Source of the DNA: Candidatus Marivariicella framensis
GTDB lineage: Bacteria > Bacteroidota > Bacteroidia > Flavobacteriales > Flavobacteriaceae
DNA: 64,000 bases
Direction: 5' to 3'
Assembly (NCBI GenBank): GCA_905182735.1
Contig: CAJJCT010000008.1
Coordinates: 1 to 64,000, forward strand
Shown here: positions 20,304 to 29,105 of the stretch, in pieces
Layout: every line of letters begins with the position of its first letter
How positions within the stretch are numbered: the stretch's first letter is position 1
Program-made: the position numbers and the translations under genes
The notes under the pieces: model-generated
Databases searched by the model: none
The model's input: only the letters and a program-made list of their open reading frames with translations
What the model was told of the DNA's origin: nothing

Positions 20304-23234
20304 ATGAAATATTTCTATAGTTTAATATTGATATTAGTTTGCATTTTAAAAACAAACTCTCAACAACCTGATCCACTTATAACATCTGATTATTTATTAC
20401 AAAAAAAATGGGTAGACAGTATTTATAATTCCATTTCGTTAAAAGAGAAAATAGGTCAACTTTTTATTCCTATGGTTTTTTCTAATGGAGACTCTGTGCA
20501 TTTAAAAAAAACATTAGACTTAGTAAAGAAATATAAAATTGGAGGTCTTATTTTTTCGAAAGGAAATAGTAAATCTCAAATTGAATGGAGTAATATCTTT
20601 CAGACAGAAGCAAAGATTCCACTATTAATATCTATGGATGCTGAATGGGGAGTGGCAATGAGACTGGATGATGTTTTACCATTTCCATGGAACATGACTC
20701 TTGGAGCAGTTAATGATAATGATTTAATATATGATATTGGAAAAAGAATTGGTGAACAATCTTTAAGGTTAGGAATAAATATGAATTTTGCTCCTGTTTT
20801 AGATGTAAATACAAATCCTAAAAATTCAATTATTGGAAATAGATCATTTGGTGAATCAGTAGAAATTGTTTCAAAAAAAAGTATTGCAATTATGAAAGGA
20901 ATGCATAGTGCAAATATTTTGACTTCTGGCAAGCATTTTCCTGGACATGGAGAAACATCAAAAGATTCTCATAAAACCCTACCAACTATAAAGTCTAATA
21001 AAAAACATATTTATGAAATAGAATTAGCACCTTTTAAAAAACTTATAGAAGAAGGAGTTTCATCGATCATGATAGGTCATTTAAACATCCCTAGTCTTCA
21101 GGATTCTGATCTGCCTTCATCATTATCTAAACACATAGTAACTAATTTATTAAAAAATGAATTAGGTTTTAATGGTTTAATTTTTACTGATGCACTTAAC
21201 ATGCAGGGGGTTTTAGGTTCAAAAATAATTGGTAATATAGATTTAGCAGCTTTTAATGCTGGAAATGATATTATTTTAATTTCTGAAAATATTCCTGAAG
21301 GAATAAGTGCAATTGAAAAGGCATATTTATCTGGTTTAATCTCTGAATTAAGATTAGAGCATTCGGTTAAAAAGATATTAAAGTCTAAATATAAATCTAA
21401 TTTAAATAAATATACTCCTGTTAAGTTGTTAGATAATCCTTTAAGTTCTGCTAATGACACACTTTTGGTTTCTAAAGTTTTTCAAAGAGCTATTACTGTT
21501 CTTGAAAATAAAAATCAAATACTGCCTCTTAAAATCAATAACAAATATGGTTATTTATCTTTAGGGAAAGGCTCTGGATTGCATTTCAATAATAAGTTAA
21601 AAGCATATGCTCATGTTGATGATGTAGTTGGTTATGACTACAAAAATATTATTAATCAAGCTAAAATAAATAAATGGGACGCTATTATAATCGGGTGGCA
21701 TCCTAATAAAGTCGATAATAATCCATTTCTAAACACGAAGTTTTCCTCAAAAGAAATACAATTAATAAGAAAAGTTAGTTCAAAAATACCTGTCATTGTT
21801 AATGTTTTTGCTAATCCGTATTCTGTTTATGAAATTGAAAAACTTAATAATATTAAAAGTATAATAATCAGTTATCAAAATAATGAAATTGCTCAAAAAG
21901 TAACCGTCGACTCAATGTTTGGAGTTAATGAAATTGATGGTAAAACACCTGTTAGAGCTGGTAAAAAATACCCATTAGGATCAGGTATAAAAATACTATC
22001 AAAACAGTTTTTAGGTTACTCAGAACCCTCGCTTGAGGGGTTTGATGCAAGTAAATTGAATGCTATAGATCAACTAGCAAAAACTGCTATAGACTCTTTT
22101 ATGACCCCTGGGATTCAAATGTTAATTGCGAGACATGGCAAGATTGTTTATCAAAAGAATTTTGGATATCACACATATGATAAATTAACGAAAGTAACGG
22201 ATTCTTCAATTTATGATGTTGCTTCACTAACTAAGATATTAGCTACATTACCTCTAGTTATGAGAGATGTTTCTATAGGTAAAATAAATTTAGATACTAA
22301 GATTGGTGAATTGCTGCCTAAATGGAAAGATTCAAATAAGCAAAATATTTCATTAAAAGAAATCCTTTCTCATAATGGAAGATTACAACCATGGATTCCT
22401 TTTTATAAAGAAACTTTAACCAATGATGGTAAACCAAAGAAAAGATTTTACAATACTGAGTATTCTAGATCTCATAAATTGAAAGTAACTGAGAACTTAT
22501 ATTTAAAAAATAGATTTGAAAAACAAATACTCAAAAAAATCAAGCAAAGTGAACTTATTGATACTTTAAAGCTTAAATCTTATAAAAGAAAGGATAATTA
22601 TTCTGACTTAACATATTATATTTTAAAACAATATCTAGAAGCAGCTCACAATACAAGATTAGATTTTCTTGTTGAAGACAAAATATACTCCCAATTAGGG
22701 TTATATTTCACTACTTATAATCCCAAAAATAAATATTCAAAAGACATCATTGTTCCATCTGAAGTAGATAGTTATTATAGGCATACAACTCTTCAAGGAG
22801 ATGTTCACGACATGGGAGCTGCTATGTTAGGGGGTGTTGGTGGGCATGCTGGAATTTTTTCAAATGCATATGAGGTGGCTATTATAATGCAAATGTATTT
22901 ACAGAAAGGTTTTTATAATAACAAAAAATTATTTTCAAAATCTACCTTTGATTTATTTAATAGTTGTTATTATTGCGAATATGGAAATCGACACGGAGTT
23001 GGTTTTGATAAACCTCAAATAGAAGGAGTTGGTTCAACTTGTGGATGCATATCTAAAGAAAGCTTTGGTCATTCTGGTTTTACTGGGACTTATGCTTGGG
23101 CAGATCCAGAAAAAGAAATAGTATTTGTATTTTTATCAAATAGAACGTTTCCAACTATGGAAAATAAATTGTTAGTTAGTCATAATATTCGAACTCGAAT
23201 TCAGGGTTTGTTGTATGATGCTTTGGAAAATTAA
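20304..23234 (+). CDS. Secreted GH3 beta-N-acetylglucosaminidase fused to a beta-lactamase-like serine hydrolase
   Basis: 976-residue exported protein (signal peptide to about residue 20). Residues 35-360 are a NagZ-like GH3 domain: KHFPGHGETSKDSH (210-223, including the D221/H223 acid-base dyad) and nucleophile D296 in FTDALNM. A linker of about 200 residues follows. Residues about 600-970 are a class C beta-lactamase/DD-peptidase-like domain with S641-L-T-K644 (SxxK), Y766-S-D in the YxN position and H923-S-G in the KTG position. Together they suggest paired cleavage of peptidoglycan sugars and peptides or esters in the periplasm. This fusion is known in Bacteroidota. Confidence 0.9.
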   Translation: MKYFYSLILILVCILKTNSQQPDPLITSDYLLQKKWVDSIYNSISLKEKIGQLFIPMVFSNGDSVHLKKTLDLVKKYKIGGLIFSKGNSKSQIEWSNIFQTEAKIPLLISMDAEWGVAMRLDDVLPFPWNMTLGAVNDNDLIYDIGKRIGEQSLRLGINMNFAPVLDVNTNPKNSIIGNRSFGESVEIVSKKSIAIMKGMHSANILTSGKHFPGHGETSKDSHKTLPTIKSNKKHIYEIELAPFKKLIEEGVSSIMIGHLNIPSLQDSDLPSSLSKHIVTNLLKNELGFNGLIFTDALNMQGVLGSKIIGNIDLAAFNAGNDIILISENIPEGISAIEKAYLSGLISELRLEHSVKKILKSKYKSNLNKYTPVKLLDNPLSSANDTLLVSKVFQRAITVLENKNQILPLKINNKYGYLSLGKGSGLHFNNKLKAYAHVDDVVGYDYKNIINQAKINKWDAIIIGWHPNKVDNNPFLNTKFSSKEIQLIRKVSSKIPVIVNVFANPYSVYEIEKLNNIKSIIISYQNNEIAQKVTVDSMFGVNEIDGKTPVRAGKKYPLGSGIKILSKQFLGYSEPSLEGFDASKLNAIDQLAKTAIDSFMTPGIQMLIARHGKIVYQKNFGYHTYDKLTKVTDSSIYDVASLTKILATLPLVMRDVSIGKINLDTKIGELLPKWKDSNKQNISLKEILSHNGRLQPWIPFYKETLTNDGKPKKRFYNTEYSRSHKLKVTENLYLKNRFEKQILKKIKQSELIDTLKLKSYKRKDNYSDLTYYILKQYLEAAHNTRLDFLVEDKIYSQLGLYFTTYNPKNKYSKDIIVPSEVDSYYRHTTLQGDVHDMGAAMLGGVGGHAGIFSNAYEVAIIMQMYLQKGFYNNKKLFSKSTFDLFNSCYYCEYGNRHGVGFDKPQIEGVGSTCGCISKESFGHSGFTGTYAWADPEKEIVFVFLSNRTFPTMENKLLVSHNIRTRIQGLLYDALEN

Positions 23235-26758: not shown

Positions 26759-27346
26759 ATGCAAAATAAATCAAATAATCATAAATATTTTAAAAATAGA
26801 ATTGAATGCCTTTTTTTTATTATGTTTCTTTATCCACTTTTTATGATGTCCCAATATGAAACACAAAAATTTGATATAGTATCAAATTTTGATGGAATTG
26901 AGATTAGATACTATCCACCTTCTATGATGATAAAATATGATGGTGATGTAAATAAAAGTAGTGGCTTTGCCCCCCTGTTTAAGTATATTTCTGGTTCAAA
27001 CGACTTGAATCAAAAGATGTCGATGACAACCCCAGTTCATATGCAGAAAACTAACACTAAATCTTCGATGGAATTTGTTCTTCCATCCAAGATTACTCTC
27101 GAAACTGCTCCCAACCCATTAAATTTAGATTTAAAATTATATCAAAGTATCGGCCAATATTATGCAGTTATTAAGTATGGAGGTTATACTAACTCTGAGA
27201 AAGAAAACAAATTTTCAAAAGAACTTATTTTAAAACTCAATCTTAATAGCATACAAATAAATGGAGACACAAAGATTTTAGTCTACAATAGCCCATATAG
27301 ATTCATAAACAGGAATAATGAGATTATAGTCCCAATAATTTATTAA
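26759..27346 (+). CDS. SOUL / heme-binding family protein, exported
   Basis: 195 residues. After a hydrophobic leader (FFIMFLYPLFMMSQ), the domain shows SOUL landmarks: YETQKFDIVSNFDGIEIRYYP, SGFAPLFKYISGSN, KMSMTTPVHMQ, GQYYAVIKYGGYTN and a terminal YNSPYRFINRNNEIIVPI. Eukaryotic members bind heme or tetrapyrroles; bacterial roles are unknown. Export to the periplasm is inferred from the leader. The start at 26759 is uncertain because an upstream copy of the same sequence exists. It is followed 18 bases later by a lipoprotein gene that could be co-transcribed. Confidence 0.85.
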   Translation: MQNKSNNHKYFKNRIECLFFIMFLYPLFMMSQYETQKFDIVSNFDGIEIRYYPPSMMIKYDGDVNKSSGFAPLFKYISGSNDLNQKMSMTTPVHMQKTNTKSSMEFVLPSKITLETAPNPLNLDLKLYQSIGQYYAVIKYGGYTNSEKENKFSKELILKLNLNSIQINGDTKILVYNSPYRFINRNNEIIVPIIY

Positions 27347-27364
27347 TACTATAAATAAATAATC

Positions 27365-28912
27365 ATGAAGAAACTTTTAATAATCACTTTTTTAATTATT
27401 TATTCTTGTTCATCATCTGATGACGGATATGTTACACCTTCAGTTGTAGTTCAACCTCCAGTAGATACGACAGAACCAGTTACAGTTCAATACACATTAA
27501 CTGTAACTTCAGGCTTGGGTGGTTCAGTATCATCAACTGGGGGTACATATGATGAAGGCACATCTGTCACAATTACTGCGTCTGCAAATTTTGGTTTTAA
27601 TTTCGTGAATTGGACAGGCAATAGTTCTACTGATGCTTCAATATCAATCATTGTAAATTCAGATATTACTATATCTGCAAATTTTCAAGAAATAAGTTCT
27701 GTTGAAAGCTCCCCAAGCTTCGATTTAATATATCCCTTAATAGTAAAAGAAATTCCAGAATCAGAATTTGAATTAATTTTTAACACCTCTTCGTTAAAAA
27801 TGAATACTAGAGTTGCTAAAATAATGGCTATAGTATTTCCAGTTGGAAATTTAATAAGTGAGGGTGGTTTTATTGGTCCTGGAGGCTTTAATTCTTACGA
27901 AGTTGTTCTAAACAATGATCAATTATCTTCAATAGAAACTAGTATGTCAAATTGGATTTCTACACATACTAGTTTCAACGAGACTCAACTTCAAGAAATT
28001 GTTGATGAAAACATGAATTATATTAATAATGGTGCTGATGTTTCTTCTCAGTTTGCAATTACATCTGATGTGAGACTAGTTTTAATTGCTGCTCCAAGTG
28101 AAATGAGCATTCCAAATTTAAAAAAATTATTTATTCATGAAACTTATCATGCATTTCAGCAGGATTTGGAAGATGAAAGTTGTAGAAATTTGATGGATCA
28201 AAACGAGAATTCAAACTCTAGATGGATCATAGAAGGTGGCGCGGAGTATTTTTCACACAATGTTGCGGCAGAGATAGGTATAATTGAATCAGCAAAATCT
28301 ATTTTTATGGAAGAAGCCTTAGCTGCTTATAACCAGTCGGTTTTTGAAAACGAGCCTAATCCAAATTCATTGTTAGGTGGAGCAATTGCTTCTAGAGGAG
28401 CTGCTGCTATTAATTTAATGATAGATCAAGGTTTTTTAACAGAAGCTGAAGTAATGAATGGGCTTTTGTTTACCTCTTGCGCAAGAGAAAATGAATATTC
28501 TGACCAGAATTCTAACATTGATTTCATCAAAAATAATTGGTTTAAAATTCAAGATATCTCTGGTGTTTGGTCCTTCAACATTGATACTTCTGAGTCATAT
28601 TCTCTCTCAGTAACCGCTAATAATTCATCCGATTATAGCTTAAGTGGAACCGACAGGAATGGAAATGTTTCTGGAAATGATCCAGGTTTAGTTTTTAATA
28701 TTGGTGATAATATCAATTTTGTTGTAGATGCAACTGGTCACCCATTTTATTTAAAAACAATAGCTGGAACTGGCTCAGGAAATTTAATAGATGGAGTAGT
28801 GGGTAATGGGGTTGATGATGGGACTGTTTCTTGGACGCCAACTGAAGCAGGTGTATACTACTATCAATGTTCTTTGCATGGAGGTATGGTAGGCACTATA
28901 ACTATTGAGTAG
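27365..28912 (+). CDS. Modular surface lipoprotein: InlB-like repeat, HExxH protease-like domain, cupredoxin domain
   Basis: 515 residues. The lipobox IIYSC puts the lipidated Cys at residue 15. Residues about 46-110 form one divergent InlB-B/Listeria-Bacteroides repeat (TVTSGLGGSVSSTGG, TITASANFGFNFVNWTG). The middle domain has H258-E-T-Y-H262 within LFIHETYHAFQQD, a zinc-peptidase-like site, with IIEGGAEYFSHN downstream as a possible third ligand region. Residues about 400-515 look like a blue-copper fold with ligands H459 (GHPF), C502, H505 and M508 in QCSLHGGMVG. Protein-level function unknown; each domain call is by motif. Confidence 0.8.
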   Translation: MKKLLIITFLIIYSCSSSDDGYVTPSVVVQPPVDTTEPVTVQYTLTVTSGLGGSVSSTGGTYDEGTSVTITASANFGFNFVNWTGNSSTDASISIIVNSDITISANFQEISSVESSPSFDLIYPLIVKEIPESEFELIFNTSSLKMNTRVAKIMAIVFPVGNLISEGGFIGPGGFNSYEVVLNNDQLSSIETSMSNWISTHTSFNETQLQEIVDENMNYINNGADVSSQFAITSDVRLVLIAAPSEMSIPNLKKLFIHETYHAFQQDLEDESCRNLMDQNENSNSRWIIEGGAEYFSHNVAAEIGIIESAKSIFMEEALAAYNQSVFENEPNPNSLLGGAIASRGAAAINLMIDQGFLTEAEVMNGLLFTSCARENEYSDQNSNIDFIKNNWFKIQDISGVWSFNIDTSESYSLSVTANNSSDYSLSGTDRNGNVSGNDPGLVFNIGDNINFVVDATGHPFYLKTIAGTGSGNLIDGVVGNGVDDGTVSWTPTEAGVYYYQCSLHGGMVGTITIE

Positions 28913-28928: not shown

Positions 28929-29105
28929 TTAATTTCTTATTGGTCTTATTTGAAGGTCGCCATTACAGTTAGGGCAAATATGTTTTAGTTTTTTTTCAAC
29001 ACAGTCTTTGCAAAAAGTACATTCATAAGAGCATATGAAAACTTCTTTACTTACATTTAGAAAGTGCTTATTGCAATTTTCACAATTAGTTTTCATTTCT
29101 AACAT
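28929..29105 (-). CDS. DUF1272-type eight-cysteine zinc protein
   Basis: A 58-residue gene on the minus strand in what otherwise looks like a spacer. It begins MLEMKTNCENCNK and has cysteines at 8, 11, 25, 29, 32, 35, 44 and 47, ending CPNCNGDLQIRPIRN. The spacing (CxxC, CxxxCxxCxxC, CxxC) and the closing PNC.G.L..RPIR fit DUF1272, a widespread small zinc-ribbon family of unknown function. It is convergent with the lipoprotein gene (16-base gap) and divergent from the M24 peptidase gene. Cytosolic, no leader. Confidence 0.88.
   Translation of the reverse strand: MLEMKTNCENCNKHFLNVSKEVFICSYECTFCKDCVEKKLKHICPNCNGDLQIRPIRN

Follow-up and report, generated by a model that had tools for sequence, protein, structure and literature searches.

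The window analysed here, a 64,000-nucleotide stretch of the genome of Candidatus Marivariicella framensis (Flavobacteriaceae), contains a lipoprotein gene that joins three modules that normally occur apart. The locus raises the question of what a protein that combines a surface repeat, a possible zinc peptidase and a blue-copper domain may do for the cell. The complete reading frame occupies positions 27365–28912 of the plus strand, starts with ATG and encodes 515 residues. The coordinates, the length and all of the residue numbers given in the initial annotation (H258-E-T-Y-H262, H459, C502, H505 and M508) are right. The chain contains three distinct modules, as had been described: an InlB repeat (residues 43–110), a domain with the HETYH motif (residues ~124–404) and a cupredoxin (residues ~409–515). 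An assembly chimera is unlikely, because the contig extends over 95 kb with the reading frame in its interior, and two other genera share the plan.

As judged from the sequence, the N-terminus of the protein is formed by a lipoprotein signal peptide (MKKLLIITFLIIYSC, positions 27365–27409, plus strand), in which a hydrophobic signal precedes the presumed lipidated cysteine C15 (27407–27409). The cysteine is directly followed by the residues SSSDDG (27410–27427, plus strand). The consensus of the Bacteroidota lipoprotein export signal is SDDFE in F. johnsoniae and SDDDD in B. fragilis (PMC5080379); the sequence after C15 is alike, but offset by two residues. The lipid anchor together with this export-like signal makes the placement of the 515-residue lipoprotein on the outer surface probable, in agreement with the initial annotation. 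Sorting domains of the type IX secretion system (TIGR04183 and TIGR04131) were absent among the NCBIfam matches up to an E-value of 1, and the protein was rejected as a cargo of that system on this ground. Residues 43–110 (27491–27694, plus strand) form a divergent InlB B-repeat, which matches PF18998 with an E-value of 6.8e-15 and a score of 55.3 bits, well above the cutoff of 23.6. The InlB N-terminal part is also present on other lipoproteins of the same genome (L002 and L003), and it is probably a spacer or stalk.

The middle of the chain (residues ~124–404, 27734–28576, plus strand) is a gluzincin-type zinc-peptidase domain of an unnamed family, as indicated by its alignment, structure model and fold matches. 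Both motifs exceed the chance level: when the 515-residue protein is shuffled, HExxH turns up in 0.4% of cases and the copper-ligand pattern H-x(30,60)-C-x2-H-x2-M in 0.025%. Conservation is a stronger test, for which relatives were needed. Searches with the single sequence of the middle domain gave no match in 199 genomes of the family Flavobacteriaceae, in genome_contigs or in viral_contigs, and sequence searches of the PDB gave nothing useful. An alignment built from three proteins reached through shared flanking modules (L003, L014 and L030) recovered L089, a stand-alone lipoprotein-like protein of 330 residues with 34% identity over the domain. The two-row alignment of the window protein and L089 opened the family: its profile found 24 loci in genome_contigs, all from metagenome-assembled genomes, most of which can be recognised as marine from their title or lineage. 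They belong to SAR324, Marinoscillum and other Bacteroidota, SAR202 and other Chloroflexota, and Acidimicrobiales and Micrococcales of the Actinomycetota. Most of the reading frames start, as judged by eye, with a lipoprotein-like signal running into a cysteine. Samples of the wider class and order contained two weak matches besides the window, the viral searches found no relative of the domain, and no orthologue turned up in six further genomes from the genus, each of them incomplete (68–90%).

The family alignment consists of 23 rows, the window protein and 22 others. H258, E259 and H262 of the HETYH motif (28136–28150, plus strand) are invariant in all 23 rows, which rules out a chance HExxH, and the two histidines are predicted zinc ligands, with E259 as the catalytic glutamate. 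E290 (28232–28234, plus strand), located 27 residues after H262 within W-I-I-E-G-G-A, is also present in 23 of 23 rows; overlooked in the earlier reading, it is the probable third zinc ligand. The other invariant residues are G223, R237, Y261, A263, F264, Q265, D267, C273, A293, F369, C372 and W392. C273 (28181–28183, plus strand) probably pairs with C372 (28478–28480) in a putative disulfide. No model of Pfam or NCBIfam reaches its cutoff on the middle domain of the window protein, and across the family there are only scattered weak matches to known zinc peptidases. Peptidase_M61 (PF05299) scores 14.5 bits in one scan and 16.5 bits in another, both below the gathering cutoff of 22, and membership in M61 was rejected. 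By these comparisons, the predicted peptidase domain belongs to a family that is absent from Pfam and NCBIfam and is newly found here. The unnamed family of predicted lipoprotein-like zinc peptidases is mostly marine and is spread over several phyla; among its members are SAR324 and Chloroflexota of the SAR202 type, from which few surface proteases have been described.

The middle domain and the cupredoxin were modelled separately. The AlphaFold2 model of the middle domain, calculated with the family alignment, has a pLDDT of 86.7 and a pTM of 0.87. The best PDB matches in Foldseek are the M61 aminopeptidase 7xyo (probability 0.97) and leukotriene A4 hydrolase (0.92), none with an E-value below 0.001. 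The top match in VIA-align is 4fgm (Z 11.5, rmsd 4.1, 211 aligned residues), and all of the 50 matches listed are M1, M61 or collagenase (M9) gluzincins or their close homologues. Therefore, the HExxH segment appears to sit in the catalytic fold of a peptidase and not to be buried in a non-peptidase fold, with E290 in the probable position of the third ligand. The possible zinc peptidase of the initial annotation is thus borne out at the level of the model, with predicted activity. The HExxH motif, the downstream glutamate and the catalytic fold are common to the window domain and to the M61 glycyl aminopeptidases, M1 aminopeptidases and M9 collagenases of clan MA(E). In contrast to these enzymes, the window chain is without their accessory domains, and its family has an invariant set of its own, which comprises YHAFQQD, the pair C273/C372 and FHxC.

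The C-terminal module (residues ~409–515, 28589–28909, plus strand) is a cupredoxin according to its AlphaFold2 model, which has a pLDDT of 91.4, and to the comparisons by Foldseek and VIA. Foldseek matched the model to rusticyanin, the purple cupredoxin of Nitrosopumilus, amicyanin and plastocyanin, all with a probability of 1.00, and VIA to the cupredoxin domain of a nitrite reductase (Z 11.2). The beta-sandwich carries the complete type-1 set of histidine, cysteine, histidine and methionine. H459 (28739–28741, plus strand) is conserved in 53 of 54 copies of the module, and C502 (28868–28870), H505 (28877–28879) and M508 (28886–28888, all on the plus strand) in 52 copies each. The blue-copper domain that had been noticed is real, and, judging from its computed ligands and fold, it would bind one copper ion. 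The window module scores 15.4 bits against Copper-bind (PF00127), below the cutoff of 21.2, which is passed by its relatives L011 (25.7) and L038 (22.4). A sequence match to amicyanin was also seen, and the C-x2-H-x2-M loop is amicyanin-type. The fold and the four ligands are the same as in amicyanin and rusticyanin; unlike these free soluble carriers, the window cupredoxin is a tethered module of a kind that is also found in phage tail proteins. In 25 of the 28 bacterial rows, only 0–4 residues follow the module before the frame ends. Its bacterial partners on surface lipoproteins include DUF285 repeats, Lipoprotein_15 repeats, CHRD and Ig-like domains, and in L015, L062 and L065 it follows a lipoprotein signal alone. 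Elsewhere in the same genome there is what remains of another protein with a cupredoxin tail, the module of which is interrupted by an in-frame TAA (L032, ~1–790; C29:1-790).

The copper module is also carried by phages, which is an addition beyond the earlier reading. A search of viral contigs with the module found 23 loci, and seven of the eight viral proteins scanned match PHROG families, which include baseplate wedge subunits, tail fibres and a baseplate wedge–tail fibre connector. Forty phage records match the module, mostly from Synechococcus and Prochlorococcus phages. In the viral structure library, the matches are tail fibres and other proteins of cyanophages, and the best of them has a TM-score of 0.89 and 49% identity. 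The modules of cyanophage tail-fibre and baseplate proteins (phrog_677, phrog_9158 and the proximal tail fibre of P-SSM2) have the same ligands as the window module, identities of ~35–53% and TM-scores of up to 0.89. They differ in that they belong to virion proteins, are often N-terminal or internal, and have other partner domains. All three of the phage proteins checked for a subtilase domain contain one (E-values 3e-21 to 6e-28) together with the module, which forms the extreme C-terminus of two of these proteins. The genes encoding subtilase and cupredoxin in L140 (1833–3839, Synechococcus phage S-H9-1), L141 (1776–3836) and L142 (1467–6965) adjoin structural genes, and two of these genes bear the annotation 'hypothetical'. 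A limited literature search, which is no proof of absence, found no paper linking cupredoxins with metallopeptidases or phage tail fibres. One blue-copper module is common to bacterial surface enzymes and phage tails, and the testable question arises why both cells and virions in the sea should expose domains that bind copper.

The plan of the window protein recurs in two other genera of Flavobacteriaceae, which the earlier reading had not noted. L014 (568 residues) and L030 (483 residues) contain a signal, an InlB repeat, a domain with HExxHxxQ...WLxEGxA and the same cupredoxin. Their peptidase domain belongs to subfamily B, a distant sister of subfamily A, to which the window domain belongs (hhalign probability 93.6%, 99 columns). 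Since the two subfamilies are used within the same plan, flavobacteria probably put the three modules together on at least two occasions. The combination had been called unusual. This holds for subfamily A, where the copper module is absent from all 24 relatives; L014, L030 and the cyanophage proteins with subtilase and cupredoxin show, however, that it is not unique. Subfamily B also occurs as a second domain behind the subfamily-A domain in Chloroflexota. These tandem proteins, from Chloroflexota/Dehalococcoidia genomes (L119, 798 residues; L121, 807 residues), have the subfamily-B motif HEYIHIYQ...PIW[LF]EEG; L117 (806 residues) combines a subfamily-A domain with a second HExxH domain similar to theirs. 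In the genome of the window itself, L003 has an InlB stalk and a B-type peptidase without a cupredoxin. The lipoprotein L002 of the same genome (C11, 1486–2934) has two InlB repeats and an unfamiliar C-terminal domain with EVFEHLLHTIQ, which may be related, in degenerate form, to the HExxHxxQ domains.

Based on these observations, we favour, with somewhat better than even confidence, the reading that the protein is a stalked zinc peptidase of the cell surface, with an accessory module that binds copper. Its lipid anchor and the export-like SSSDDG would put it on the outer surface, and the InlB repeat would hold the remainder off the membrane, as suggested by its use on other lipoproteins of the genome. 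H258, H262 and E290 would bind zinc and E259 would act as the general base, as indicated by their invariance and the model. The presence of the same presumed zinc site in the rows from Bacteroidota, SAR324, Chloroflexota and Actinomycetota supports the peptidase reading. The enzyme would probably digest proteins or peptides on the surface of the cell and so feed a small marine heterotroph. The cupredoxin would serve as an accessory surface module, for binding, as a copper-stabilised scaffold or for copper capture, rather than engage in redox chemistry with the peptidase. A precedent is FP0506 of Flavobacterium psychrophilum, which is predicted to be a gluzincin lipoprotein of the surface and enables the degradation of elastin (PMC6414381). 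Like the window protein, it is a flavobacterial lipoprotein, predicted to be surface-exposed, of the gluzincin clan and outside known families. FP0506 is 296 residues long, with HExxH at 144–148, ExxA at 167–170 and its best HHpred kin in PF04228 and M48 (PMC6414381). Compared by description, it differs from the window protein in the shorter spacing between HExxH and ExxA and in its kin, which are M61 and M1 for the window domain.

The divergence of the window copy makes its catalytic activity uncertain. Among the other 22 rows, 31 columns reach a conservation of 95% or more; the window protein agrees with 27 of these, including the entire zinc site, and departs from the rest by C203S, C233T, D365N and H370T. 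C203 and C233 are probably a disulfide that was lost as a pair. Residue 370 (28472–28474, plus strand) is threonine in the window and histidine, within FHxC, in all of the 22 other rows. His370 could be a catalytic residue and is a possible candidate for the tyrosine or histidine that stabilises the transition state. Because His370, D365 and one cysteine pair are lost, the window copy may be weak, altered or inactive. With these losses and an end branch that is longer than any other in the tree (1.76), it may be a divergent enzyme or a pseudo-enzyme. A pseudo-peptidase would have kept the zinc site and lost cleavage; together with the cupredoxin, it would form a head on the stalk that has a binding or structural role. 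We regard this as possible but doubtful, since Glu259, the three presumed zinc ligands and HExYHAFQQDL around them are intact, whereas a decayed pseudoenzyme would usually have lost some of these residues.

The role of copper admits further readings. The cupredoxin might sense, deliver or store copper and thereby alter the activity of the peptidase or guard it against oxidation. The fusion of the module to three types of protease (gluzincins of subfamilies A and B and cyanophage subtilases) and the linker of only ~6 residues between the strand ends of the two models speak for such a copper-regulated or copper-assisted protease. However, the module is also attached to many non-protease proteins, and its promiscuity would explain the recurrence with proteases without copper regulation; all 24 subfamily-A relatives, moreover, do without it. 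We consider this explanation quite unlikely. A broader speculation, to which we give little credence, is that the cupredoxin is a copper-dependent functional partner of marine proteases that are displayed on exposed surfaces, fused independently to the two gluzincin subfamilies and the cyanophage subtilases, and that its copper loading controls targeting, stability or activity. The complete type-1 ligand set and the cupredoxin fold would also suit an oxidative copper enzyme or an electron carrier, both of which the initial annotation had suggested. Multicopper oxidases need type-2/3 copper ligands. The window chain has a single cupredoxin with one type-1 copper site, no set of type-2/3 ligands and no HXH clusters, which rules out a laccase or oxidase and makes an oxidative enzyme unlikely. 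The electron-carrier reading loses weight because the module is also carried by tail proteins of virions, for which neither a redox partner nor an electron-transfer chain is evident. The neighbouring genes also contain no redox chain apart from a gene of the SOUL heme-binding family (26759–27346, plus strand; PF04832, E-value 9e-33) and an FAD oxidoreductase gene two genes downstream of the lipoprotein. Taken together, an oxidative or electron-carrying function is very improbable, and the surface zinc peptidase with an accessory copper module remains the reading that we prefer.

The SOUL gene ends 18 bp before the lipoprotein gene, so that co-transcription of the two is possible; no SOUL gene is located beside the relatives of the family in the flanking stretches examined. 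These stretches show no conserved neighbourhood either, except for a penicillin-amidase-family gene near three SAR202-type loci. Downstream of the lipoprotein gene, the minus strand of the window contains a small cysteine-rich reading frame (~28930–29100; MKTNCENCNKHFLNVSKEVFICSYECTFCKDCVEKKLKHICPNCNGDLQIRPIRN), which resembles DUF1272-type proteins and is too short to figure in the list of open reading frames. Another fusion is encoded at positions 20304–23234 of the window, where a protein of 976 residues combines an N-terminal domain of glycoside hydrolase family 3 with a beta-lactamase-family domain.
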